Below, piece after piece: positions 18,263-35,643 of a stretch of DNA of 36,407 nt (position 1 is the first letter of the stretch; every line of letters starts with the position of its first letter). Where the stretch lies: positions 1 through 36,407 of the forward strand of contig JACMLT010000109.1 in assembly GCA_014379455.1 (NCBI GenBank), read 5' to 3'. Both the position numbers and the translations under genes were made by a program. Source of the DNA: Nitrospiraceae bacterium. GTDB taxonomy: Bacteria > Nitrospirota > Nitrospiria > Nitrospirales > Nitrospiraceae. The notes beneath the pieces were generated by a model. That model ran no database searches. It was given only the letters and a program-made list of their open reading frames with translations, and was not told the DNA's origin.

Positions 18263-21200
18263 ATGATCATTCTTGTCATCGAGGACAGCCGTGAGGAGAT
18301 GATCCTGCTGCGAACAGCTCTTTCTGCTGTCACAGCCGTCGCCATTCGGGTGGTGCATGTGGATCAGCTGTCAGCCGCATCTACCTGTCTGACTGCGGGG
18401 CATTTCGACGCAATTATCTTGGATCTCAACCTGCCCGATAGCATCGGCCTCAATACACTCGCACGTGTGCAAGCGTCGGCGCCGGGGATTCCGGTGGTGA
18501 TCATGGCGAGCATGGATGACGAGCGTCTGGCGATGGACGGAATTCGTGCCGGAGCTCAGGACTACGTCGTGAAGGGGAGGTACGACGGAGCGCTGCTGTT
18601 CCGTTCCCTGTGCACTGCCATAGAACGGAAACGGCTGCTGACGGATCTTGAGGCGCGCGTTGCCGACCGTACGGCCGAGCTCGCGGCTGCCCATCAATCT
18701 CTCCTACGCGACAGGACGGACCTGAAGCGCATGGAAGAGACCGTGCGCGACAGTGAAGAACGGTTCCGTGCCCTCTATGACGAAACCCCGTTCATGCATT
18801 TCACAGTGAACCAACAAGGCACGGTGCTCTCCACCAACAGTTTTGGCGCGACACAGTTGGGATACACACCGGAAGAACTGATCGGGCGTTCTATCTTGTC
18901 GGTCTTTTATGAAGAGGACACGGATGCGGTCGTCCGAAAGTTGGCTGAAGCGTTCGGCAATCCCTCCTGCACGGCCTGGTGGACATTCAGGATGGTGAAG
19001 AAGAATGGAACGATGACCTGGGTCAGTGAGACCGTTCGAATTGCGCGTGGCGCTGACACGCCAGTCGCTCTCATTGCCTGCGAAGACGTGACCGCCTTCA
19101 AGCATGTGGAGAAGAAACGGGGGGAGCAGGAATTGCTCAACATGATTATGTTGAGCACAGGACCTAGCTGCATCAGCCGCGTTGCTTCCGATGGAACATT
19201 GCTGCAAATAAATCCTGTCGGACTACGATTTATTGAGGCGTGCAACGAGCAGGACGCGCTCGGTCTTTCAATGTTCGACCTGGTTGTCTCTGAGCATCGC
19301 GCCGCGTTCGTGAGTATGCATGACGACGTGATCGATGGTCACGAGCGAACACTCCAGTTTAAAATTCAAGGTCGCAAGGGATCCAGCCGGTGGATGGAGA
19401 CCTATGCCGTGCCCTTTCGAAACCCTGTCACCGGGTGCATCGAACAGTTAGCCGTAACCAATGACATCACTGAACGAAAAAATAGAGAGGACGCGCTGTT
19501 GGCGGTGGTCGAAGGGGTTGCGACACAGATAGGGGAGGATTTTTTTTCCTCCTTGGTCCGTCGCATGGCCACGGCATTCAATGTCCAGTTCGCCTATCTT
19601 TCTGAGAGGGATGCTGAAGGTACGCATTTTCGGTCCATCGCAGCGTGGGGGGCAGGCGCTTTCATCGAGCCGTTTGTGGTGCCGGCGGGCAGCCCTTGCG
19701 AGGCAGTGTTAACCGGACAGGCCGTTCACCATCCGGATCGGCTTCACACGCTCTACCCCCATGTCCGCTTGATCTCCGACTTTGGGGTTGTCAGTTATTG
19801 CGGGGTACCGGTCGCCGACAAGACGGGCCGGGTGATCGGGCATATCGTCCTTATGGACAACAAGCCGATGCCGGACGGGAAGCTGGCGATCCCTATTTTG
19901 CAGGTGTTTGCCTCTCGAATAGTGGCCGAGCAGGAGCGCAAACGGGTAGTTCAGTCACTCGAACGCAGTCGGTCGCTGTTGCAATCCTTCGTTGAGCACA
20001 CACCGGTCGCTGTAGCGATGCTCGACCAGCAGCTTCGATATGTGGCTGTCAGTCAGCGCTGGTATCAGGATTATCAGCTTGGCGAGCAGGATATCATCGG
20101 GCATCACCATTACGACGTGTTTCCTGAAATCCGTGACATGCGGGAGTGGCAGGATATCTATCAACGATGCCTGGCCGGTGCGATCGAGCGGAGGGAAGAG
20201 GATCCTTTCGTGCGAGCGAACGGGCACACCGACTGGCTGCGGTGGGAAGTGCGTCCCTGGCATGACGAACACGGCGCCATCGGTGGGATCATCATATTCA
20301 CGGAACTGATTACGGAGCGGAAGCAGATTCAGGAAGCCTTGCTCCAGGCGAAAGACACGGCTGAGATAGCCACCATGGCCAAGAGCGAGTTTCTGGCTAA
20401 CATGAGTCATGAGATCCGCACGCCGATGAATGCGATAGTCGGAATGGCTGACTTACTGGGGGAGACGTCTCTCACCGACGAACAGGGTAAATACGTCCGT
20501 ATCTTCCGAAACGCCGGCCAGAACCTCATGACTCTGTTGAATGACATCCTCGATCTCTCCAAGGTGGAAGCGAAGCAAGTTGAGCTAGAACGGATCCATT
20601 TCGATCTGCAGGACGTGATTGACAGCGTGATCGACCTGTTGGCCTTGCGGGCGCGCGATAAAAACGTGGAGCCGACCTGCTACGTGTCGCCTGCGATCCC
20701 TCGATTCCTCTATGGTGATCCAACCCGTCTCCAGCAGATTCTGATTAATCTTGTCGGTAATGCCATCAAGTTCACCGAGCAGGGTTCCATCGAATTGCGT
20801 GTGGTGCCGAATCCCGAGATCTCCGAACCGGGTGCGCTGCTGTTCTCTGTCGTCGATACTGGGATCGGCATTCCCCCAGATAAGCTGGAATCAATTTTCG
20901 ACAGTTTCACGCAGGCGCACATCTCCACCGCGCGCAAATACGGTGGTACCGGCCTGGGTCTCGCTATCTGTAAGCAACTCGCCACCCTGATGGGCGGCCG
21001 CATCTGGGCCGAGAGTGTCGTTGGTCACGGAAGTACCATCTCGTGCGCACTGCGATTCGACGTCGAGCCGGAGTCTCCGGAAGCCACTCTCTCCACCCTC
21101 ACGGACTTGAACGCTCTTCGCGTGCTGGTCGTGGATGATAACCCGACGAACCGACTCATCGCTCGGGAGGCCTTGACCGGCTGGGCCATGCTGACGCGGG

Positions 21201-21961
21201 AAGCGTCGGGCGGTCTGACCGCGCTGACCGAGCTGAAACGGGCGCGGGAGGCCGGCGAACCGTACGAATTTGTCCTGCTCGATTCCCGCATGCCAGATCT
21301 GGACGGATTCGAGGTCGCCGAACGGATTCGAGCGGATCCGTCCCTGAAGGATCTTGCCATCTTGATGCTCACGTCGGACTTCGGAGGGGCCATGCGCCGG
21401 TCCGGTGAGGTCGCGCGCACCTACGAACTTGGTCTGGCAGGATATTTGGAAAAACCCATTAAACGGTCTGAGCTTCGTCGCGCGCTCACGATCGCACATA
21501 GACGAAAGCAAGGTTTGTCTCCGTTGCCGAAGCAGGTTGAGAAACCCGTGGTATTGGTGGATCACCGACCACTAAGAATCCTGGTTGTGGAGGATTCGCC
21601 TGACAATCAGCTTCTGATCAAGGCCTATCTGAAAGCGACGCCGTACAAGGTAGATATCGCGGAAAACGGGCGGATTGCCTGTGACATGGTGACTGTCGGC
21701 CGATATGACCTTGTGCTGATGGATGTACACATGCCGGTAATGGACGGCTATGCCACGACTGAGACCATCAGGGAATGGGAAAAGAGGCAGGGCATTCCAC
21801 CGACGCCGATTCTTGCGGTGACGGCCTACGCGTACCCTGAAGATAAACGACGAATCAAGGCGGCCGGGTGCAATGGCGTCTTGGCCAAACCCATCAAGAA
21901 AACGACGTTGCTGGAAGCTATTCTCAGCTATACGGGATCGGCTGGCCGCCCGACGCAGTGA
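18263..21961 (+). CDS. Hybrid sensor histidine kinase 1 (REC-PAS-PAS-GAF-PAS-HisKA-HATPase-REC-REC)
   Basis: The 1232-residue soluble kinase has, in order: an N-terminal receiver (1-125, D54 in [10 protein letters not shown]), a coiled coil, two PAS domains (about 165-295 and 295-415), a GAF domain (about 415-565), a third PAS (about 570-695), HisKA with the phosphorylated H716 in [19 protein letters not shown], HATPase (N box [14 protein letters not shown] boxes DTGIGI and GTGLGLAI), and two receivers with acceptors D1007 and D1154. No membrane segment is visible, so it senses inside the cell, perhaps redox, light or small molecules through PAS/GAF. It is a paralogue of the next gene and has a receiver at its very front, so it may itself be phosphorylated by another kinase. 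Confidence 0.93.
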
Positions 21962-22007
21962 CACAGTGGCAGGCATCTGTGAGAAGAACGCGAAGGAGAA
22001 GCGACTT

Positions 22008-25000
22008 ATGATCATCCTTGCCATCGAGGATAATCGGCAGGAGATGGCCCTGCTGCAAGAAGCACTCTCCAGTTCCACGAACACCACCATTCTTGTCGAG
22101 CATGCGGATCGGTTGTCAGCGTCGTTGGCTTGCCTGGCCGCAAGGCGTTTCGATGCCATACTCCTGGACCTCAACCTGCCTGACAGCGAGGGCCTCAATA
22201 CGCTCGCGCGTGTGCAAGCACAGGCGCCGGAACTTCCGGTCGTGATCCTCACAGACCTGAATGCCGAGCCACTGGCGATTTTAGCCATTCAGCATGGAGC
22301 GCAAGATTATGTGTTGAAGGGGCCATACGATGGGGGAGCGATCGGCCGTGCTCTCTGTACAGCCGTCGAGCGGAAGCGGCTTGAGGAGGCACTTCGCGTT
22401 TCCCAGCAGCGCTACGTCTCGTTGGCGAAGTCCGTAAGCGGGATCGTTTGGGAGGCGGACCCAGTGACGTTCGGCTTCACGTATGTGAGCGATCAAGCCG
22501 AGCATATTCTTGGCTACCCTGTTCAGCGTTGGCTCAACGATCCGTTGTTCTGGTCCGATTGCCTACATCCTGAAGACCGCAAACAAGCCGTGGCCTATCG
22601 TACGGAGCAGACGAAGTTGGGCCTGGCCCATGATTTTGAATGCCGGATGCATGCCGTCGACGGCCACGTTGTTTGGGTCAGAAACATCGTGAACGTATGT
22701 GTGGAAGCGGGACACCCCGTCCTGTCCCATGGCATCATGGTCGATATCACTGAGCAAAAACGTCAGAACGAGAGGCTCGCTCAACTTCAGTGCGCGGTAG
22801 ATCACAGCATGGAAGGCGTTGCGCTATTGAGTGCCGATGGATTGCACACCTATATGAACTCAGCCTACGCGGCTCTGTATGGCTATGAGGTTGAAGAGTT
22901 GATCGGACAATCGTGGAAGAATCTCTACAGTCCCGAGCACCAGAGTAGAATTGAGGAAGACCATTTTCCCTTCTTGTTGCGGGTCGGATATTGGCGAGGC
23001 GAACTAGTCGGGAGAAGGAAGACCGGAGAGTCATTCAATGTCGAAATCGGGTTGCGGCAATCTAGCCATGGCGAAGGACATATCCCTGACATTATCTGCA
23101 CCTGCTGCGACATCACAGAGCATAAACGAATCGCGACACAAGAAAGCCGGCGCGTCAGTTTGTCCGAGGAGTATCAGGCTGGGTTGCTGGAATTGACTCA
23201 GAACAAGGCGATTATCTCTGGAGAACTTCACCTTGCGGCTCAGGCTATTACCGAGACAGCGAGCCGTGTGTTGGCGGTCGAGCGCGCCAGCATCTGGTTA
23301 TTCCGGGAAGATCCCTCAACTATCCAGCTGCAGGATCTGTATGAGGCTTCCACCTGTCAGCACAGCGCTGGAGCTGTTCTCCAGGCCGACCAATTCCCGT
23401 CGTACCTTCAGGCGTTGGAGTGGGAAGAACATGCGCTTGCGACTCTCGACGCCCACTTAGGTCCGCGTACCCGTGAACTTTCATCGTCGTATCTCACGCC
23501 ATTTGGAAGCGGCGCAAGGCTCGATGCATTGATCAGTCATAGAGGAAAGACGGTGGGCGTCTTGTGTCATGAAAACCTCGGCTCACCCCGCATATGGACC
23601 AGCAATGAAATGACTGTCGCCACATCATTAGCCATGATGGTGACTCTCGCGATGGAATCTATGGAACGTCGGGAGTCGGAGAAAGCCCTCCGCCAGGCAA
23701 AAGAACGAGCAGAGAAGGCGAGCGCAGCCAAGAACGAATTTCTTGCCAGCGTGAGTCACGAGATCCGCACGCCCATGAATGCCATTGTCGGTATGGCTGA
23801 TCTCTTATGGGAAACAGATCTGGCACCAGAGCAACGAAAATACCTGCGAATTTTCCGCCGTGCTGGCGGAAATCTATTAAATCTGATCAACGACATTCTC
23901 GACTTGTCGAAAGTCGAGGTCGGCCATCTGGAACTGGAATCAACCGAATTTGATTTGGGTGACTTGATTGAAAAGGCTATCGAGATTCTCGCCCTGCGGG
24001 CGAATGAAAAAGGCCTCGAACTTGCCTGTCATATTTCCCCTGATGTCCCCTGTGCGGTGATTGGAGACCCACACCGGCTCCACCAGATCATCTTGAATCT
24101 CATTAGTAACGCGATCAAATTCACCGACAGCGGGTCCGTCATGGTATGGGTGAAGCCGGATCCTGAAATCCCCTCCCTTGGCGCCATTCGATTTGCTGTG
24201 AGTGATACAGGGATCGGCATTCGATCAGACAAGCTTGCCTCCATATTCGAAAGCTTTACGCAAGCCCACGCCTCGACAACGCGTATGTATGGGGGCACCG
24301 GGTTAGGGCTGGCCATTTCAAAGCGATTAGCAGAACGCATGGCGGGACGAATTTGGGTGGAGAGCACTCTAGGAGAGGGCAGCACCTTTCATTGCTGCGT
24401 GCAGCTTGCGGTGCCATCCGGCCAGACCACCACCCATAACAACATCCCGCTCGATCTTCATGGGATCAGAGCCCTTGTCGTTGATGACCATGCCATCAAC
24501 CGCTTGATCCTTCACGAATCCTTGGCGGCCTTGGGTGCGGAGGTGACGGATACTGCCTCCGGTCACGATGCCATCGAAGAATGGCGGCGAGCCGCTGAGT
24601 CGTCGCGACCCTACCAGCTTGTGCTTCTCGACTGTCGCATGCCGGAGATGGATGGGTTTCACGTTGCCGAAGAGATTAAACGGGCCGACCCTTCCCAGGG
24701 ACCGAGGATTGTGATGCTGACCTCTCGTCATTGGGCCGACGATATCGCCCGCACCTACGACATGGGACTAGGTGGTTATTTGATCAAGCCTATCAGGAGA
24801 TCGGATCTGATTCAGACCATCAGCATCGCCTTCGACCGTGCGAAGGGGATCCAACATACGGCTGGGTTCTCATCAGTGGCGTCTACAACTCCAACTGAAC
24901 TCAAGGCGCTTCGCATCTTACTAGCTGAAGATTCCACAGACAATCAGATGCTCATTCGTGCCTATGTGAAACAGACTCCATATTGCCTTGATATCGCGGA

Positions 25001-25289
25001 TCACGGCGCCATCGCGGTGGAGCGATTCAAGATCGGCGACTACGATCTCATCCTGATGGATATGCAAATGCCGGTGATGAACGGCTATGAGGCTACACGA
25101 GCCATTCGAGCGTGGGAGCGGGAGCATAACCTCTTTCCCATACAGGTGATTGCCTTGACTGCCCAGGCACTGAAAGAGGACGGAGTGAAGATTTTCGATG
25201 CCGGCTGCGATGCCCATATGACGAAACCCATCAAGAAACACACCCTCCTGGAGGTTCTCCGGGCTTGCAAAGGACGGCATATATCATGA
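22008..25289 (+). CDS. Hybrid sensor histidine kinase 2 (REC-PAS-PAS-GAF-HisKA-HATPase-REC-REC)
   Basis: I start it at 22008 (MIILAIEDNRQEM), with AAGGAGA upstream and the same opening as its paralogue; the frame extends into the end of the preceding gene. The 1093-residue protein has a receiver (D54), two PAS domains (about 125-250 and 255-380), a GAF-like segment (about 390-550), HisKA with H584 in [18 protein letters not shown], HATPase with intact N and G boxes ([21 protein letters not shown]), and two receivers with D875 and D1018. The N- and C-terminal parts are very similar to kinase 1, while the sensory middle differs and lacks one PAS. Its stop overlaps the HPt start, so HPt is very likely its partner. 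Confidence 0.93.
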   Translation: MIILAIEDNRQEMALLQEALSSSTNTTILVEHADRLSASLACLAARRFDAILLDLNLPDSEGLNTLARVQAQAPELPVVILTDLNAEPLAILAIQHGAQDYVLKGPYDGGAIGRALCTAVERKRLEEALRVSQQRYVSLAKSVSGIVWEADPVTFGFTYVSDQAEHILGYPVQRWLNDPLFWSDCLHPEDRKQAVAYRTEQTKLGLAHDFECRMHAVDGHVVWVRNIVNVCVEAGHPVLSHGIMVDITEQKRQNERLAQLQCAVDHSMEGVALLSADGLHTYMNSAYAALYGYEVEELIGQSWKNLYSPEHQSRIEEDHFPFLLRVGYWRGELVGRRKTGESFNVEIGLRQSSHGEGHIPDIICTCCDITEHKRIATQESRRVSLSEEYQAGLLELTQNKAIISGELHLAAQAITETASRVLAVERASIWLFREDPSTIQLQDLYEASTCQHSAGAVLQADQFPSYLQALEWEEHALATLDAHLGPRTRELSSSYLTPFGSGARLDALISHRGKTVGVLCHENLGSPRIWTSNEMTVATSLAMMVTLAMESMERRESEKALRQAKERAEKASAAKNEFLASVSHEIRTPMNAIVGMADLLWETDLAPEQRKYLRIFRRAGGNLLNLINDILDLSKVEVGHLELESTEFDLGDLIEKAIEILALRANEKGLELACHISPDVPCAVIGDPHRLHQIILNLISNAIKFTDSGSVMVWVKPDPEIPSLGAIRFAVSDTGIGIRSDKLASIFESFTQAHASTTRMYGGTGLGLAISKRLAERMAGRIWVESTLGEGSTFHCCVQLAVPSGQTTTHNNIPLDLHGIRALVVDDHAINRLILHESLAALGAEVTDTASGHDAIEEWRRAAESSRPYQLVLLDCRMPEMDGFHVAEEIKRADPSQGPRIVMLTSRHWADDIARTYDMGLGGYLIKPIRRSDLIQTISIAFDRAKGIQHTAGFSSVASTTPTELKALRILLAEDSTDNQMLIRAYVKQTPYCLDIADHGAIAVERFKIGDYDLILMDMQMPVMNGYEATRAIRAWEREHNLFPIQVIALTAQALKEDGVKIFDAGCDAHMTKPIKKHTLLEVLRACKGRHIS

Positions 25290-29167: not shown

Positions 29168-29343
29168 CTACCTTTCCCGGCACGCCCACGGCGTACCAGC
29201 TGCAGATCAACCCACAAACCTTTCTTGGCCTCTCCCGCTGACTTTTCGAGTGCTTCAAGTTCTGTTTCGAGCGGGGTATACTTCCGATACCACCAGCACC
29301 AGCCCTCTTTGAGGAGCGTGTGATTGACGTTGGTGCCAGCTCT
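29168..29343 (-). pseudogene. C-terminal remnant of a staphylococcal-nuclease-type thermonuclease (1)
   Basis: Read on the minus strand: GTNVNHTLLKEGWCWWYRKY, then LEALEKSAGEAKKGLWVD, the typical last third of SNase-fold nucleases. After that a one-base loss changes the frame; in the restored frame PPWACRER followed by a stop ends the domain, as expected for this family (PPWxxR). There is no catalytic part upstream, only unrelated sequence. It is a remnant without activity. Confidence 0.8.
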
Positions 29344-29419
29344 CTAGTAAGGTCTCAACCCAGAATTAGGGGTCAGAGAATTTCCCTACGCAGACGCTTG
29401 TTCTACCTGGAGGTGCGCT

Positions 29420-29911
29420 ATGCTGGCCATCCGATTGGTGCGACTTATCGAGACTCACATCGAACAGCTCTCCCGCGACCTCAGCGAGAAGGTATGGAAC
29501 TCTCCCCGGTGCAGCGATTTGAGCAAAGTCCCGGCGAGCGAACTCCAAGCCCGCACCCGCGAGATATACCGTAATCTGAGCGAGTGGCTGCTGGATATGG
29601 ATAAGGGCGAGGCCCAGTTGGAGCGGCGTTACACTGAGCTGGGTGCGGCGCGCGCTCAGCAGAGCGTGGACTACAGTCACTTTGTCTGGGCCATCATCTC
29701 CACCAGGGAACACGTGCGCGACTTCGTCCAGCGCGAAGGTCTGTCCGAGAGCGCCATGGAACTGCATGGAGAGCTGGAACTGCTGCACCTGCTTGGCCGG
29801 TTTTTCGATCGCGTGCTGTATTACGCCGCCGTGGGCTACGAGCAGGAGCGCAACCGGATAGGAGGGAAGCAAGGGAGGCGCAAAGGAGATGCGCAGACAA
29901 AATCCACGTAG
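29420..29911 (+). CDS. RsbRD N-terminal-like helical sensor protein
   Basis: The 163-residue protein is all-helical: RLIETHIEQLSRDLSEKVWN at the start, then LQARTREIYRNLSEWLLDMD, ERRYTELGAARAQQSVDYSH, VWAIISTREHVRDFVQREGL, and ELELLHLLGRFFDRVLYYAA. This is the pattern of the RsbT co-antagonist RsbRD N-terminal domain, a globin-like helical fold, here without the STAS domain. Such domains appear as free proteins in Nitrospira-like genomes, where their role is unclear. It is intact, with GGAGG upstream of the ATG, and lies between two SNase remnants that point the other way. Confidence 0.75.
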   Translation: MLAIRLVRLIETHIEQLSRDLSEKVWNSPRCSDLSKVPASELQARTREIYRNLSEWLLDMDKGEAQLERRYTELGAARAQQSVDYSHFVWAIISTREHVRDFVQREGLSESAMELHGELELLHLLGRFFDRVLYYAAVGYEQERNRIGGKQGRRKGDAQTKST

Positions 29912-29932
29912 CGTCTGAACGAGTGAGGACTC

Positions 29933-30115
29933 ATGCCTGCAGCAATATCCAGTGGGGCACCGGTTGCAGATTGGCCACAACCCTTTCCGCGCCTCTCGCG
30001 GTTCCTTCTTTAGTCCTTCCAGGACTGTATCCCCCGGCGCATACCGCCGATACAGCCAGCACCAGCCTTGTTTGACGAGTCCCTGATTGATGTTCATTCC
30101 GTCCCGTCACAACAC
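29933..30115 (-). pseudogene. C-terminal remnant of a staphylococcal-nuclease-type thermonuclease (2)
   Basis: The minus strand reads INQGLVKQGWCWLYRRYAPG, then LEGLKKEPREARKGLW, again the end of an SNase domain. One base is missing right after GLW; in the restored frame ANLQPVPHWILLQA and a stop follow. A DGT block ahead of it, near 30110, is out of frame by one base as well. The catalytic part is absent. It is paralogous to the remnant at 29168-29343 but not identical. Confidence 0.8.
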
Positions 30116-30196
30116 ATCAGGAAGGGTACGACTGGATTAATCGAGGCTTGTAGGTTTGGCGCGAGATGTCTTTTCACGAAAAATCGCCTTTGGATG

Positions 30197-30719
30197 CCCC
30201 GCCCGGCAGGGCGGGGAGGAAAAAGGCCTGCTGCCAGAGGCAGCACCAATCTTGTAAAGTGGGGGCATGGAAATTCGGCGTGCCAGCCACTGTGTCTACG
30301 ACACCAGATCATCTGGTGTGGGCTCCCAAGTACCGCAAGTGGGTGCTGCAAGGAGCGGTACGGGAGCGCGTCCGAGAATTATTTCTGGAGATCGCGGCGC
30401 ATCACGGGTTTGAGATCGAAGAGTTGGAAGTAGACAAAGACCACGTGCATGTGTTGCTGAGCTTTCCGCCGAAGTACTCGATTGGGCAGGTGGTGGGCTG
30501 TTGAAGGCGGTCAGTGCTCGGGAGATTCGGGCGGGATTTCCCGAGGTGCGCAAACAGTTATGGGGTGGGGAGTTTGGGGAGGATGGATGTTTTGCACGCA
30601 CGGTTGGCGATAAAGTAACTGCCGACGTGATCAAGAAGTATATCCGGTTTCATGAAGCCAAGAAGTGTCAAGCGGAGCAGTTAAAGATGTTCTAGAAAGC
30701 CCCGCCCGGAAGGGCGGGG
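30197..30719 (+). mobile_element. IS200/IS605-family element, inactive
   Basis: The element is delimited by two matching hairpins: CCCCGCCC-GGCA-GGGCGGGG at 30197-30216 on the left and CCCCGCCC-GGAA-GGGCGGGG at 30700-30719 on the right. These are the subterminal stem-loops that Y1 (HUH) transposases recognise. Between them lies one broken tnpA and no tnpB. The exact ends lie a little outside the hairpins and cannot be fixed by eye, since these elements leave no target duplication. Confidence 0.88.
30267..30695 (+). pseudogene. IS200-type transposase TnpA with two frameshifts
   Basis: The frame opens MEIRRASHCVYDTR from 30267, shifts by one base near 30308, continues HLVWAPKYRKWVLQGAVRER, IEELEVDKDHVHVLLSFPPK and YSIGQVVG, shifts again near 30499, and ends AREIRAGFPEVRKQLWGG, then VIKKYIRFHEAKKC. 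The HUH pair (HVH) and the candidate nucleophile Tyr (KKYIRF) are still coded. The restored length, about 143 residues, is normal. Two frameshifts make it non-functional unless they are sequence errors. Confidence 0.88.
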
Positions 30720-31166
30720 TTCTTTACTAAACCAGATCTGACGCGGTCTGCTACGGGAACTGTTTAGGAAAGAGATTATGCTTCGCGCTACTGCAGACGG
30801 CCGAGAACTTTACCTGGCGGTTGGAGTGTCGGGTGATTAAGAGGAATTACGGCGGCTCATAACCGGGCGGAATAAGTTTGGTGGAGGGCACCTGCTACCT
30901 GACTTATTCAGGCCAACAATTCGCGTTCCGCTGAGAACGACACAGGTGCGCGCCAACTTCAAGCAATAAGCCTGCGCTCTCCCACGCGGCACAGTTATCA
31001 ATAGGGATTAGGCATCATGGATTCCGAAAAAATAATCTTCATATTTTCTTTTGCCCCTCCATACCCACGAGGGGGATCAAAGTTCTCCAGCTTCAAGTAG
31101 CCTATCTTTTCCAGGCACCTAAGCGTGATATGATTTCTGGATATATGTCTATGCCTGAATCAGCCA
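30720..31166. other. Gene-less stretch between the IS element and the KaiC/CheB operon
   Basis: About 450 bases. A short open stretch near 30753-30839 (FRKEIMLRATADGRELYLAV) reads like the end of a protein but I cannot place it. Repeat copy C lies at 30871-30890. From about 31,000 on the sequence becomes visibly richer in A and T. Confidence 0.4.
30871..30890. repeat. Dispersed repeat, copy C (left part only)
   Basis: AATAAGTTTGGTGGAGGGCA matches 35662-35681 (copy B) at 19 of 20 bases and in the same orientation. To the right of GGGCA the two differ, whereas copy A shares the right side of B but not the left side. Confidence 0.65.
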
Positions 31167-31466
31167 CTAGGGCGCGCCCCCTGGGACTTGCATAAGGTTT
31201 TCCAAGTCGCGGTATTGTTCGTTTCTTTTCCTGTACAAGAAGTTCACTTGTGAAACCCAGCGTCCATATTCTTCTGCCGGTCTCTTCGTAGAGGACGACC
31301 CGCACGCTTTTAACAGCGTTGCCCTATCATTGAGTATCCTTGGTTCGGCAATTGAGTTTGATGGAACTGGAATTGCGGTGCGCTTCGCGAAAGTTGGACC
31401 ATAGATCCGGCCTGTCATGCTGTCAACCTGAACGCGGATTTTTGTAACGCCGGCGTAACTCATCAA
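31167..31466 (-). CDS. Small protein at the end of the KaiC/CheB operon, unknown function
   Basis: The 99-residue protein begins MMSYAGVTKIRVQVDSMTGR, has IYGPTFAKRTAIPVPSNS and ends in a helical, charged part (EEYGRWVSQVNFLYRKRNEQ). There is no signal peptide, membrane segment or known motif. Its start overlaps the end of the CheB-type gene by four bases, which suggests coupled translation and a linked role. A second, overlapping frame at 31102-31305 is less convincing. Unknown family. Confidence 0.6.
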   Translation of the reverse strand: MMSYAGVTKIRVQVDSMTGRIYGPTFAKRTAIPVPSNSIAEPRILNDRATLLKACGSSSTKRPAEEYGRWVSQVNFLYRKRNEQYRDLENLMQVPGGAP

Positions 31467-32041
31467 TCTTGCGCGACGCGCGCACCAATTTTGACAAGCC
31501 TCTTTACAATTTTGTCGAGCGGCAGAACGAAATCAATACAGCCTGAAGCCTGAGCACTGAGCGGCATGTCGTTGACTTCGGCAGACCTGTCCTGAGTAAA
31601 GGTTGTGCCTCCCTTTGCCTTGATGTGCTGGCATCCCGCAGTACCATCGCCATCATACCCGGAGAAGATAATGCCGATCGCACGGTTCCCCTTAGCCTCG
31701 GCTAAAGAAATGAAAAACAAATCGATCTGATTGTTCCTCCTAGTGCGCGGGGAGGTGACTTTAAAGGCATCGCGCTCAAATAGAAGATCCGTGCCCTGAG
31801 GAATCACGTAGACGTGATTCGCCTGGATGAGCATCGCGTTGGAAGCCAGCATTACTGGCATTTTTGTGTGACGCGACAGAATGAGCGCTAACTGAGTATT
31901 GGCGGTGGGGTGAACATGATACACAAAGACAAAGGCCATATTGGTTTGAGACGGCAGGACGTCCAAGAGCCCCGTATAGGCGTTAAGAGCTCCAGCTGAG
32001 CCGCCAATGCCAACAATGTAGGTGGGATGTAATACTCCCAT
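31463..32041 (-). CDS. Stand-alone CheB-type methylesterase domain protein
   Basis: The 192-residue protein is a CheB catalytic domain without a receiver. The triad is visible: S15 in VGIGGSAGA, H42 in VYHVHP and D132 in SGYDGDGTAG. The linker part HVYVIPQGTDLL and the segment SLAEAKGNRAIGIIFSGYDG also match. CheB removes methyl groups from, or deamidates, chemoreceptors; no receptor, CheR or CheA gene is in the window, and the absence of a receiver means it is not controlled by phosphorylation in the usual way. It starts three bases after the KaiC-like gene and overlaps the next small gene. Confidence 0.88.
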   Translation of the reverse strand: MGVLHPTYIVGIGGSAGALNAYTGLLDVLPSQTNMAFVFVYHVHPTANTQLALILSRHTKMPVMLASNAMLIQANHVYVIPQGTDLLFERDAFKVTSPRTRRNNQIDLFFISLAEAKGNRAIGIIFSGYDGDGTAGCQHIKAKGGTTFTQDRSAEVNDMPLSAQASGCIDFVLPLDKIVKRLVKIGARVAQD

Positions 32042-32044
32042 GAC

Positions 32045-33583
32045 CTAGGCCCGGATCCCTAGCTCTCTTGATTTGAGTTTCATTTTTTCTTTCTCAGTTT
32101 TACCAACCTTCTTTTTCTGATCGGGGTCTTCGGCAGCATTCATTGGTACGATGTTAATTCCGTCATCACTCAACACCAATTTGTGGACGTCACTGGAGTG
32201 GCCCATGCCACGAGACTTCACGATGTACAGTCCGCGAATGCGTTTTTTGCCCTCCTCTTCTTCTAGTTCTCTCACAACGAGCCACGTGTCAATTAAAGAC
32301 GAGACGCCGACTTCGCCGCTCGTGTAATTTTGTGCGTTGGAAGAAACAAGACTTGTAAAAACCCCAGTGATGCCCTTGGATTTTAAAAGATCAATCATGC
32401 GCGTAACCATTGATTGAATTTCACGTTGGCTCCCCTCTGCAATGAGACTTGTCAGGGGATCGATGATAACAGATTGTGGTTTGAAATCTTCAATGGTCTT
32501 GTATAAATCGAGTAGATGCATCTCTAACCCAAAAAAAGAAGGTCTCGTAGACTCAATCCGTAAGAGTCCTTTTTTCACCAATGGTGCCAAATGAATATCT
32601 ATAGAACTCATGTTTTGGATGAGCTGCCCCGAAGATTCTTCATACGACAAGAACAGACACCGTTCTCCACGTTTACATCGTTCTACTGCGAATGCCGCCG
32701 CGAGGCTTGTTTTTCCAGTGCCTGCGGTCCCGGAAAAGAGTATCGTGCTGCCTTTGGTAAACCCGCCACCTTGAAGCATTTTATCTAACGACGGAATTCC
32801 TGTCGAAACTCGCTTGCTGGTGCCTGGTTGATCGAGTCCTGCAGAAGTGATTGGAATGACTGACAGCCCATTTTTATCAATGACGAAGGGATATTCGTTT
32901 GTTCCATGATTTGAGCCGCGATATTTAATCACACGAATTCTACGGATGGCGATTTCTTGATTCACTCTGTTATCCAGCAAAATTATGCAATCGGAGAGGT
33001 ACTCCTCCAGGCCATGACGCGTATAAGAGTCGTGTCCCGGCTCGCCGGTCACGATCGCCGTCACGCGTTTGTTCTTCAGCCATCGGAACAGTCTTTTTAT
33101 CTCTAAGCGAAGAATGCCCGTATTTGTGAGGCCTGCAAAGAGAGATTCAATAGAATCTATCACAACGCGTTTGGCGCCGATAGCATCAATAGCATGTTCT
33201 AAACGAATAAATAGTCCCTCAAGATTAAATTCGCCGCTCTCTTGAATATCTCTGCGCTCCAAAAGAACATGTTCAATCAGAATCTTTTTTTGTGAAACCA
33301 GCCCCTGTAAATCCAGGCTGAGAGACGCCACGTCTTTATACAATTCATCTTCTGTCTCTTCAAAGGACATGAAGATGCCTGGCTCATTATAATTGGCCGC
33401 ACCCTTGATGAGAAAATCAATCCCCAAAAGGGTTTTTCCAGACCCGGCACTTCCGCAAACTAAAGTGGTTCTATTTCTCGGAAGCCCGCCTTCTGTAATT
33501 TGGTCAAAGCCTTTGATGCCGGTGGGGCACTTGTCTAATTGATTATGAGTAAAAGCTTTTTTCTTCTTACGAGTGTTAGGCAT
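32045..33583 (-). CDS. KaiC-like two-domain ATPase
   Basis: The 512-residue protein is a double KaiC/RecA-fold protein. Domain CI has Walker A GSAGSGKT at 44-51 and the catalytic glutamates E75/E76 in MSFEETED; domain CII has GTAGTGKT at 285-292 and E315/E316 in LSYEESS. In cyanobacterial KaiC the two phosphosites (Ser431/Thr432) lie in STITDT; here the matching segment is SSLIDT with S428/S429, so autophosphorylation is possible. There is no KaiA or KaiB gene nearby, so a clock is not implied; KaiC-like proteins outside cyanobacteria often work with histidine kinases. The C-terminal tail is highly basic (QKKKVGKTEKEKMKLKSREL). Base composition is A/T-richer than the rest of the window, which suggests transfer. 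Confidence 0.92.
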   Translation of the reverse strand: MPNTRKKKKAFTHNQLDKCPTGIKGFDQITEGGLPRNRTTLVCGSAGSGKTLLGIDFLIKGAANYNEPGIFMSFEETEDELYKDVASLSLDLQGLVSQKKILIEHVLLERRDIQESGEFNLEGLFIRLEHAIDAIGAKRVVIDSIESLFAGLTNTGILRLEIKRLFRWLKNKRVTAIVTGEPGHDSYTRHGLEEYLSDCIILLDNRVNQEIAIRRIRVIKYRGSNHGTNEYPFVIDKNGLSVIPITSAGLDQPGTSKRVSTGIPSLDKMLQGGGFTKGSTILFSGTAGTGKTSLAAAFAVERCKRGERCLFLSYEESSGQLIQNMSSIDIHLAPLVKKGLLRIESTRPSFFGLEMHLLDLYKTIEDFKPQSVIIDPLTSLIAEGSQREIQSMVTRMIDLLKSKGITGVFTSLVSSNAQNYTSGEVGVSSLIDTWLVVRELEEEEGKKRIRGLYIVKSRGMGHSSDVHKLVLSDDGINIVPMNAAEDPDQKKKVGKTEKEKMKLKSRELGIRA

Positions 33584-33646
33584 GAAATAATCCTTATCGA
33601 TGTACTAGGTTGAGCCCTTGCTGTGTATTGATTTCAGCACTTTCTA

Positions 33647-33820
33647 TCATGCGGTGGGGTCACATTCGATGAAAAGGGCGACTCGAACTCGGGTCCTAAG
33701 AACCCATCGGGCTTGGGTCATCAGGGGATAAATCACATCGACTTCATCCGTACCCGTGTCGCCTGCCAGCTTTTCAAGGGCTTCGACGACCGATCTCATC
33801 CAATCCTGTGGGCGCATCAT
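33647..33820 (-). CDS. Possible 57-residue protein
   Basis: A minus-strand frame from ATG 33820 (a second ATG follows directly) to TGA 33647 encodes MMRPQDWMRSVVEALEKLAG, then DEVDVIYPLMTQARWVLRTR and a hydrophobic end. Helical content and residue use look coding. There is no strong ribosome-binding site, and it lies about 60 bases ahead of the KaiC-like gene on the same strand, so it could be the first gene of that operon or a remnant of a longer gene. Confidence 0.4.
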   Translation of the reverse strand: MMRPQDWMRSVVEALEKLAGDTGTDEVDVIYPLMTQARWVLRTRVRVALFIECDPTA

Positions 33821-34084
33821 GCACGGTCTATTCGGTCAGCCGTCGCGTGAGGCAGGCTTCAGATCCTACGCCACTGTTCAAGCAGCCGTCTGATCAATAT
33901 TGCTCAGAGTGAAACAACTATCGGGAAGACTTCCAATAGTCTGACGTCTCTCCAGAAAACGACGACAGGTTATAACTAGAGTAACATGACGGCTTCGGCA
34001 GTCTCGTACGAAAGGAGCGGGATCCGACAGGTCGAAGCCGGGCCTGGACTGCACAGGGAGATACCCGCTGACTCCAGCACCCCT
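33821..34084. other. Gene-less stretch with a large inverted repeat
   Basis: No gene is seen. GAAAGGAGCGGG at 34010-34021 is complementary to CCCGCTCCTCTTTC at 34089-34102, with two bulged bases. Confidence 0.4.
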
Positions 34085-34102
34085 TAGGCCCGCTCCTCTT
34101 TC
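34010..34102. repeat. Inverted repeat enclosing 67 bases
   Basis: Eight perfect base pairs (GGAGCGGG with CCCGCTCC) are extended by GAAA/TTTC after a two-base bulge. The enclosed sequence is GC-rich and could fold further. The right arm overlaps the start of the recombinase remnant. It could be a structured RNA, a recombinase site, or chance. Confidence 0.4.
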
Positions 34103-34383
34103 ATAATATTAAGCCGGTCTCGGTTGGGCGGTGAATCGATCCAGGTCAGTTATGCCTTCAAGCAGATTATCGACTCTGGCGTCCGATTGTTCTTCTACAT
34201 GACGGACCAAGAGCGAAGGCTCGACAATGCACTGGACAAGATAATGCTCAGCCTCTCGAACTTTGCATCTGAAATGGAGCGCGAGAAGGCCAGACAACGG
34301 ACCTATGATGCGATGTTCGCAAAGCCAAGGTGCTACAGGTCACAGGCAACAACGTGTTCGGCTACGATAACGTCCCGGTCTAG
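34085..34383 (+). pseudogene. Serine recombinase (resolvase family) remnant
   Basis: The plus strand reads FIILSRSRLGGESIQVSYAF, then KQIIDSGVRLFFYMTDQERR, IMLSLSNFASEMEREKARQR and TYDAM; this is the second half of the catalytic domain of a large serine recombinase, including the SRLGR-type motif. Near 34320 a one-base shift is needed to continue as KAKVLQVTGNNVFGYDNVPV, followed by a stop. The catalytic-serine N-terminus and the DNA-binding C-terminus are absent. It is dead and probably left by a mobile element that brought part of this region. Confidence 0.85.
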
Positions 34384-34589
34384 CGGCATGGTAGCAGATG
34401 GGAATTTTAGTGCAGAGGAGCCGCAAGAAACTCTTTAGAGATGTGATCATGTCGCCATGCCTCTTTGTGTGAGACGGGACTTCCTCCGGCTTCAAAAGAA
34501 TATGAGATACCGGCCGCAATGATTGGACCTGCCCTCTATGAACCGAGTCGAATTTGGAGTGAGGATTCCAACCGGCGAACGGAGGGAGC

Positions 34590-34640
34590 ATGGCACGGAA
34601 GCGGTACATGATGAAGAAATTATTGACATGCTGACAAGAT
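34590..34640 (+). pseudogene. Possible start of an IS3-type transposase OrfA
   Basis: MARKRY followed, after a two-base offset, by DEEIIDMLTRL resembles the beginning of IS3-family OrfA proteins. Only about 17 codons remain, so this is a weak call. Confidence 0.25.
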
Positions 34641-34651
34641 TAACATACAAG
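34623..34651 (+). promoter_or_regulatory. Sigma-70-type promoter candidate for the lipoprotein gene
   Basis: A perfect TTGACA at 34623-34628 and TACAAG at 34646-34651 are 17 bases apart, 24 bases ahead of the start codon at 34675, which has AGGGAGGG upstream. Spacing is ideal; the -10 matches four of six bases. Confidence 0.45.
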
Positions 34652-34674
34652 ACGCCCCAAGGGAGGGCTGGACT

Positions 34675-35346
34675 ATGACCGGGACCATATGGATCGTGGC
34701 GTTTGGAGTCCTGGGTTTCGCGCTCTCATCCTGCGCTCCCACTTCGTTGCCCTTGCACACCACCGTGGATACCCTGAAGATCAGAAAGACCCCGCTGACA
34801 GCCGCGCTGGTCATGCCAGATGCCATCAAGAACGCCACGTCTAGGCAAGAGGTGTCCTGTGCCGGAACCTATGATGTACCCATTGGAGCGGAACTGGAAA
34901 CAGGCATGACGCAAGCGTTGTCGCAGGTTTTTGAGTCGGTCGAAGTGGTCGATGACAAAAACCAAGCAACAGGCCATGATGTGCTCATTGAAATCGCCAT
35001 CCCGCAACTGCAGGCGGAGGGACATTGTGCACTCCGAAGGACCTTGTATGCCACCGGACCCTTGTATTTTTTGTTTAGACCCTGGGATACCTATGAAGGG
35101 CATGCGGAGCTCAGTGGGACCGCCACAGGCCGCGAGGGACAACCGCTTCTCACCGCGACGTTCAAGTCGAAGGTACACAGCAAAGACACCCTCATGACCG
35201 ACAGTCTAAGCAGGGATTTTGCCGTCGAAACCGTGTTCCGAGAATCTTTGATCGATACCATTCAGCAACTGACCCGCGGCCTGGTAAAGTCGTCGCAATT
35301 TCATGAGTACGCCGACCGACTGAAGGGCAAATACGGCGAACGCTGA
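34675..35346 (+). CDS. Lipoprotein of unknown function
   Basis: The 223-residue precursor has a lipoprotein signal (TIWIVAFGVLGFALSSC) with lipobox LSSC, so the mature chain starts at Cys20. The mature part has an N-terminal loop (TSLPLHTTVDTLKIRK) and then alternating beta strands and helices: ALVMPDAIKNATSR, VPIGAELETGMTQALSQVFE, SVEVVDD, HDVLIEIAIPQLQAEG. The pattern, a hexameric-looking lipoprotein with an ETGMTQALSQVF-type helix, resembles small outer-membrane lipoproteins of the LptE/YajI sort only loosely. It is intact and has its own promoter. I do not recognise the family. Confidence 0.78.
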   Translation: MTGTIWIVAFGVLGFALSSCAPTSLPLHTTVDTLKIRKTPLTAALVMPDAIKNATSRQEVSCAGTYDVPIGAELETGMTQALSQVFESVEVVDDKNQATGHDVLIEIAIPQLQAEGHCALRRTLYATGPLYFLFRPWDTYEGHAELSGTATGREGQPLLTATFKSKVHSKDTLMTDSLSRDFAVETVFRESLIDTIQQLTRGLVKSSQFHEYADRLKGKYGER

Positions 35347-35643
35347 TCGATCTTAAACGCCCGGCCACAGGGAAAAGAACCAGTAAACCCCGTTTATCGA
35401 GATGGACAGGTAGTTCACTGCGGCTCTAAATCTCCTGAGAGGGTCAGCAGTTAGCTGGTCTTGCTACCAAGGTCATCGAGATGGAGTCATGCGAGGCGCG
35501 AATCGCAAGGACGCGATGAATGAATTCAAGAAGGCCGAGGGACCCCGAGTATAGCCAGGTTTCCTTCACGCAAGAGATCTGGTGACTCCAACTGGAGTGG
35601 AAGTGGTTTGCCAAGCCTAGTCATTAACGGCGGACGGGTCCTA

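Follow-up and report, generated by a model that had tools for sequence, protein, structure and literature searches.

The window analysed here, which is the whole of a 36,407-nucleotide contig (JACMLT010000109.1) from a Nitrospiraceae bacterium, carries on its minus strand a kaiC-like gene with a gene for a lone CheB methylesterase domain directly behind it (Table 1). The putative ribosome-binding site in front of kaiC, AAGGATTATTTCATG, is similar by eye to AAGGATTATTGTATG, which precedes kaiC in several distant loci of the same type. Elsewhere in the window, two giant hybrid histidine kinases (PAS/GAF-HisKA-HATPase-REC-REC-REC) lie in tandem with overlapping frames at 18263-25289, and an open frame at the contig end (35824-36405), which has no Pfam match, resembles by eye the end of a sodium/proton antiporter.

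Table 1. Features in and around the kaiC-cheB locus (positions in the window)
Feature	Position	Strand	Remarks
IS200/IS605 transposase, in two frames	30190-30727	+	GC-rich 21-nt copies at the edges (30196-30216, 30699-30719)
Inserted stretch with the cassette	30976-34539		about 0.27 kb at the corresponding place in congener G398 (L109:7181-7448)
Decayed 3' end of a hydrolase-like gene	31028-31349	-	two frames; homologous to a 394-aa ORF (L120:679-1863); overlaps 31167-31466
Lone cheB, CheB_methylest domain only	31463-32041	-	192 aa; triad Ser15, His42, Asp132; begins 3 nt past the kaiC stop
kaiC-like gene	32045-33583	-	512 aa; two RecA-type domains (CI, CII); Ser428/Ser429 at the clock phosphosites
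Putative ribosome-binding site of kaiC	33584-33600	-	AAGGATTATTTCATG; read by eye
Serine-recombinase (resolvase) catalytic-domain end, fragment-like	34124-34330	+	PF00239, E = 0.0046, 17.5 bits, below the cut-off of 23.3

The KaiC-like protein, the lone CheB and a gene remnant

The preliminary description of this DNA, made from its letters and open reading frames, had read the first gene as a two-domain KaiC with both Walker motifs, the catalytic glutamate pairs and two serines at the clock phosphosites, and this is borne out. Both domains are found by the Pfam KaiC model (E = 7.5e-111), the NCBIfam model PRK09302 scores 637 bits (cut-off 408), and the two Walker A motifs, the two Glu-Glu pairs and the serine pair are nearly invariant among about 50 relatives. 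Every aligned row that covers the segment has Ser-Ser at the position of S431/T432. The same pair, instead of Ser-Thr, characterizes the KaiC2 group (PMC5520375), the companion kaiB of which is missing from the window genome. The equivalent of T426, the dephosphorylation residue five positions before the phosphosites, is Gly in the window KaiC and in nearly the whole cassette clade, so that phosphorylation possibly follows a cycle unlike the one of known KaiC proteins.

The best solved full-length match is KaiC-RS of the KaiBC hourglass of Rhodobacter (Cereibacter) sphaeroides (E = 5e-155, about 49% identity; PDB 8DBA, 8DB3 and 8FWI; PMC10076222), which likewise has Ser-Ser phosphosites and needs no KaiA. 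In contrast to that system, the window genome has no KaiB, the Thr is replaced by Gly and the partner is CheB. The proteins also differ in length, since KaiC-RS has 568 residues with a C-terminal coiled-coil tail of about 50, whereas the 512 residues of the window protein leave about 30 after the conserved part, probably little room for such a tail.

The second gene had been described as a receiver-less CheB with an intact Ser-His-Asp triad, three bases after KaiC, and this too holds. The product matches PF01339 over the full domain (E = 2.2e-46), with no receiver domain in the Pfam search, and its AlphaFold model (pLDDT 88.7) agrees with the catalytic domains of CheB solved as 3sft and 1chd at a TM-score of about 0.84. 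Ser15, His42 and Asp132 align to the known CheB triad; an E. coli CheB sequence served for the numbering, and its alignment was verified on the solved CheBs. The triad is invariant across 36 lone CheBs, and where the respective columns are present Ser is kept in 39 of 39, His in 39 of 39 and Asp in 38 of 38. Judged from these residues and from the KaiC motifs, the active sites of both proteins are competent. Fold and triad are shared with classical chemotaxis CheB (1A2O, 6YMZ), from which the window protein differs in that it has no receiver, is only about 25% identical and does not stand beside cheA, cheR, mcp or other che genes. In a CheB tree the cassette clade groups apart from REC-CheB proteins and closer to the CheB domains of CheB-CheR hybrid kinases. 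No RNA structure was found downstream of cheB (z = +1.4).

A third component had also been proposed, namely a protein of 99 residues (31167-31466) whose frame overlaps the cheB stop codon, and this part of the description does not stand. The frame is an open frame only: family searches gave no match, and no counterpart exists at the other cassette loci or in 31 congeners. Its sole match is the 3' part of a 394-residue hydrolase-like gene at another place in the genome, and past the stop of the 99-residue frame the similarity goes on in a second frame (combined E = 4e-14). Because the match spans two different frames, the 99-residue frame is to be regarded as a decayed gene end. The overlap with cheB is what speaks for an operon of three components, a proposal that the absence of counterparts and the hydrolase origin leave with hardly any probability, and the frame is rejected as part of the cassette.

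Distribution and inheritance of the gene pair

Whether the two genes stay together in other genomes had been set as a check of the preliminary description, and they do. A search of GTDB genomes returned 50 loci with a KaiC of the cassette type (69-82% identity), of which 45 extend far enough to show a downstream gene; in 44 of these it is cheB on the same strand, mostly at a distance of -23 to +81 nt. No cheB was matched beside the more distant KaiCs (37-58% identity) of the same search. The cassette KaiCs form one clade with support of 100, as do the cassette CheBs, the window pair consisting of one member of each, and the distance matrices of the two proteins are correlated (Mantel r = 0.72; 0 of 5000 permutations). 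A single clade on either side with co-varying distances means that the two genes travel together, and this conserved adjacency makes a functional link between KaiC and CheB well supported.

The hosts belong to about ten phyla (Acidobacteriota, Bacteroidota, Pseudomonadota, Bdellovibrionota, Planctomycetota, Elusimicrobiota, Chloroflexota, Verrucomicrobiota, Nitrospirota and Melainabacteria), which are intermixed within the KaiC clade and across which KaiC identity is about 70-81%, many of the loci being short contigs of metagenome-assembled genomes (MAGs) that are possibly misbinned. Isolates of Mucilaginibacter, Polaromonas and Flavipsychrobacter carry the cassette on long contigs, so that its spread is not explicable by binning errors. 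As far as the sequences tell, kaiC and cheB are a co-inherited, tightly spaced pair that has been transferred between phyla with its motifs kept, usually without KaiB.

Among 396 sampled Nitrospirota genomes, only two have the cassette. The congener G398 does not, and it is syntenic with the window on both flanks of the inserted stretch (89-90% identity up to 28917, 83% over 29278-30176 and 97% over 34540-35409). This empty site shows that the pair arrived by insertion, and the syntenic flanks that the window copy is in place rather than bin contamination. A MEDS (DcmR-type sensory) domain protein adjoins the empty site in G398 (L109:6583-7086). Another member of the genus, G385, has a KaiC identical to that of the record Nitrospira sp. 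palsa_1310 (L011), and the DNA similarity of this cassette to the window, at 84% identity, is confined to 31448-33595, a span with hardly anything in it besides the two genes. In both G385 and L011, a second, different lone CheB is convergent to the cassette (L100:135-833, L011:2609-3307), and a 64-residue remnant of that type lies on contig C153 of the window genome (L091:1480-1674). The window genome also has a second kaiC-cheB copy on contig C217 (L002:975-3158), whose KaiC is 74% identical to that of the window and nests among Bacteroidota; with MAG contamination at 6.3%, this copy could be foreign to the bin or could have been acquired in a second event.

The IS200/IS605 element is a separate insertion that is missing from G398, and the only repeat seen belongs to it, with no conserved terminal repeats at the cassette ends. 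Together with the recombinase-like fragment, the broken IS200 fits a history in mobile DNA, without identifying the vehicle. Several carriers and roles were considered and rejected: a phage origin (phages gave no match, and viral contigs none that could be confirmed), carriage on plasmids (every plasmid KaiC is less than 60% identical, hence outside the cassette clade) and anti-phage defence (weak P-loop matches for KaiC only, none for CheB). A selfish or neutral hitch-hiking of a signalling pair on mobile elements, with no function in common, would suit the patchy distribution and an insertion that holds decayed gene pieces with transposase and recombinase remnants nearby. It is nevertheless very improbable, as the window and congener cassettes have just the two genes in common, the motifs of both proteins are kept over great distances and no mobile-element gene is common to the cassette flanks.

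KaiB, hybrid-kinase neighbours and CheB-CRP fusions

No kaiA, kaiB, cheR or receptor gene had been noticed in the preliminary description, which agrees with the genes observed in the window; a genome-wide search found no KaiB, but a classical che system (REC-CheB on contig C129, CheR and MCPs) is encoded on other contigs of the genome. Of 44 other cassette hosts, 29 likewise lack KaiB and the remaining 15 have it elsewhere in the genome, whereas all six checked hosts of non-cassette KaiC possess it (p = 0.003 against cassette hosts). Its absence alone separates the window genome from circadian KaiABC systems and, KaiB being missing, a metabolic (ATP/ADP) switch or an hourglass would be expected rather than a self-sustained clock. 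For a timing role, family resemblance is the whole of the support, and an ATP/ADP-responsive switch is more economical.

CheR or a CheB-CheR-PAS-histidine kinase hybrid adjoins the cassette at nine loci, contig-end fragments included, which belong to Mucilaginibacter/Pedobacter (L028:10652-14188, L042, L021), Bdellovibrionota (L024, L029, L078, L043) and Comamonadaceae (L034, L051), and thus to at least three lineages, in differing orientations. Among 136 near and 136 far flank proteins, CheR was counted 8 times against none (p = 0.007), CheB 7 times against none and receivers 11 times against 2, although p-values of this kind are optimistic because neither flank proteins nor loci are all independent. 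The CheB domains of these hybrids, the closest to the cassette clade in the CheB tree, are each one domain of a large kinase, whereas in the cassette CheB is a protein of its own that forms a pair with KaiC. In the neighbouring hybrids, a coiled coil that is rich in Glu and has repeats such as SxNEEL could be a methyl acceptor. Since hybrid kinases occur in about 15 of the 32 genomes of the window's genus, with or without the cassette, the adjacency may partly reflect the clustering of signalling genes. A CheB domain at the end of contig C284 in the window genome (L088:1-756, minus strand) is 58-59% identical to hybrid-kinase CheBs (L043, L051) and is probably a truncated hybrid kinase gene, the only candidate in that genome.

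These data also bear on the host's own chemoreceptors as the target, by which KaiC would control chemotaxis adaptation. The window genome would have the means for it with its MCPs, CheR and REC-CheB, and a CheR domain occurs in 40 of the 44 hosts. In about 32 of the 44, however, CheR lies in a frame of 800 residues or more, which is the hybrid-kinase form, four hosts have no CheR match at all, and in the tree the cassette CheB is closer to the hybrid-kinase CheBs than to REC-CheB, all of which makes chemoreceptors an improbable target. The earlier suggestion of a target other than a classical chemoreceptor is indirectly supported by the hybrid-kinase neighbours and the fusions described below.

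Fusions of CheB to a CRP-family regulator with cNMP-binding and HTH domains occur in Acidobacteriota (L010, L013, L018, L059) and a Rhizobium MAG (L016). The fusion partner in the gammaproteobacterial MAG L074 is of a different CRP family, about 22-25% identical to the first. With two unrelated CRP types, the fusion must have arisen at least twice. Stand-alone CRP-type genes like the fusion partner of L074 lie near two other cassettes (L035:6226-6705, L034:7494-7997). The catalytic His is lost in five of the six fused CheBs and in no lone CheB (p = 6e-6), and Asp is lost once among the fusions. The KaiC motifs are intact in the five lineages L010, L013, L016, L018 and L059, while the kaiC of L074 is frame-broken. 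Fused copies that are mostly without His next to an intact KaiC mean that the pair can make use of a CheB domain that no longer catalyses, and suggest that KaiC still needs its CheB partner after the loss of catalysis.

KaiC proteins of other organisms signal through the binding of partners such as KaiB and SasA. From this and from the losses of His and once of Asp beside intact KaiCs, it could be argued that CheB is a docking or regulatory domain in all cassettes, where KaiC would be the output enzyme or ATP sensor, with an incidental esterase and a signal passed by contact to kinases or CRP factors. We regard this as rather unlikely, as no lone CheB that covers the respective columns has lost any residue of the triad, in hosts that are very diverged, which argues for selection for catalysis.

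A candidate output route for KaiC

The reading that we prefer, and to which we give a little less than an even chance, is that of a horizontally mobile two-gene cassette in which the state of KaiC is read by the CheB domain, which in turn acts on hybrid kinases or, where fused, on transcription. The KaiC2-like protein would form the usual hexameric ATPase and autokinase with two serine phosphosites, and CheB, in place of KaiB, SasA or CikA, would read its nucleotide or phosphorylation state by a contact to which co-inheritance and the fusions point. The lone CheB would then demethylate or deamidate a substrate other than a receptor, most likely the Glu-rich coiled coil of the neighbouring CheB-CheR-PAS-histidine kinases, an action that the neighbourhood suggests and that the frequency of such kinases in the genus weakens. 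In lineages with the CRP fusion, where the esterase is mostly decayed, KaiC might gate transcription by binding the CheB domain, as the architecture of the fused proteins implies for these hosts. The full chain, in which a KaiB-independent KaiC gates either a CheB that edits Glu methylation on hybrid kinases or a CRP factor through a dead, docking CheB, is put forward more tentatively, with perhaps one chance in three.

Signalling by KaiC proteins through varied partners is known. Surveys that included Ramlibacter tataouinensis (PMC3164672) and the KaiC2 group (PMC5520375) likewise placed kaiC beside signalling genes, often without kaiB. The contexts listed were kaiC-kaiB(-HK), kaiC-HK and kaiC-REC, with cheB unmentioned in the main text (PMC3164672), so that kaiC-cheB would be a further one. 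Archaeal KaiC-family ATPases are similarly hubs with exchangeable partners, which in the parts of the account considered here are HalOD1, REC and PAS, without a lone CheB (PMC5847659, citing Makarova 2017). In the open-licence literature no paper was found on KaiC and a CheB or methylesterase as a pair, and an earlier description elsewhere is possible. The spread of the pair, usually without the other clock genes, points to a KaiC output of a kind for which no description was found there.

It has been concluded that non-cyanobacterial KaiC proteins must use an output pathway other than that of Synechococcus (PMC5520375). The cassette offers a concrete candidate for this pathway, one that is widespread and present in cultivable isolates; KaiC has a single enzyme of known chemistry as its partner there, and the CRP fusions point to a transcriptional read-out. 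If the proposed mechanism is true, it would add a new route to the outputs of Kai proteins and connect Kai-type switching with the reversible methylation of proteins.
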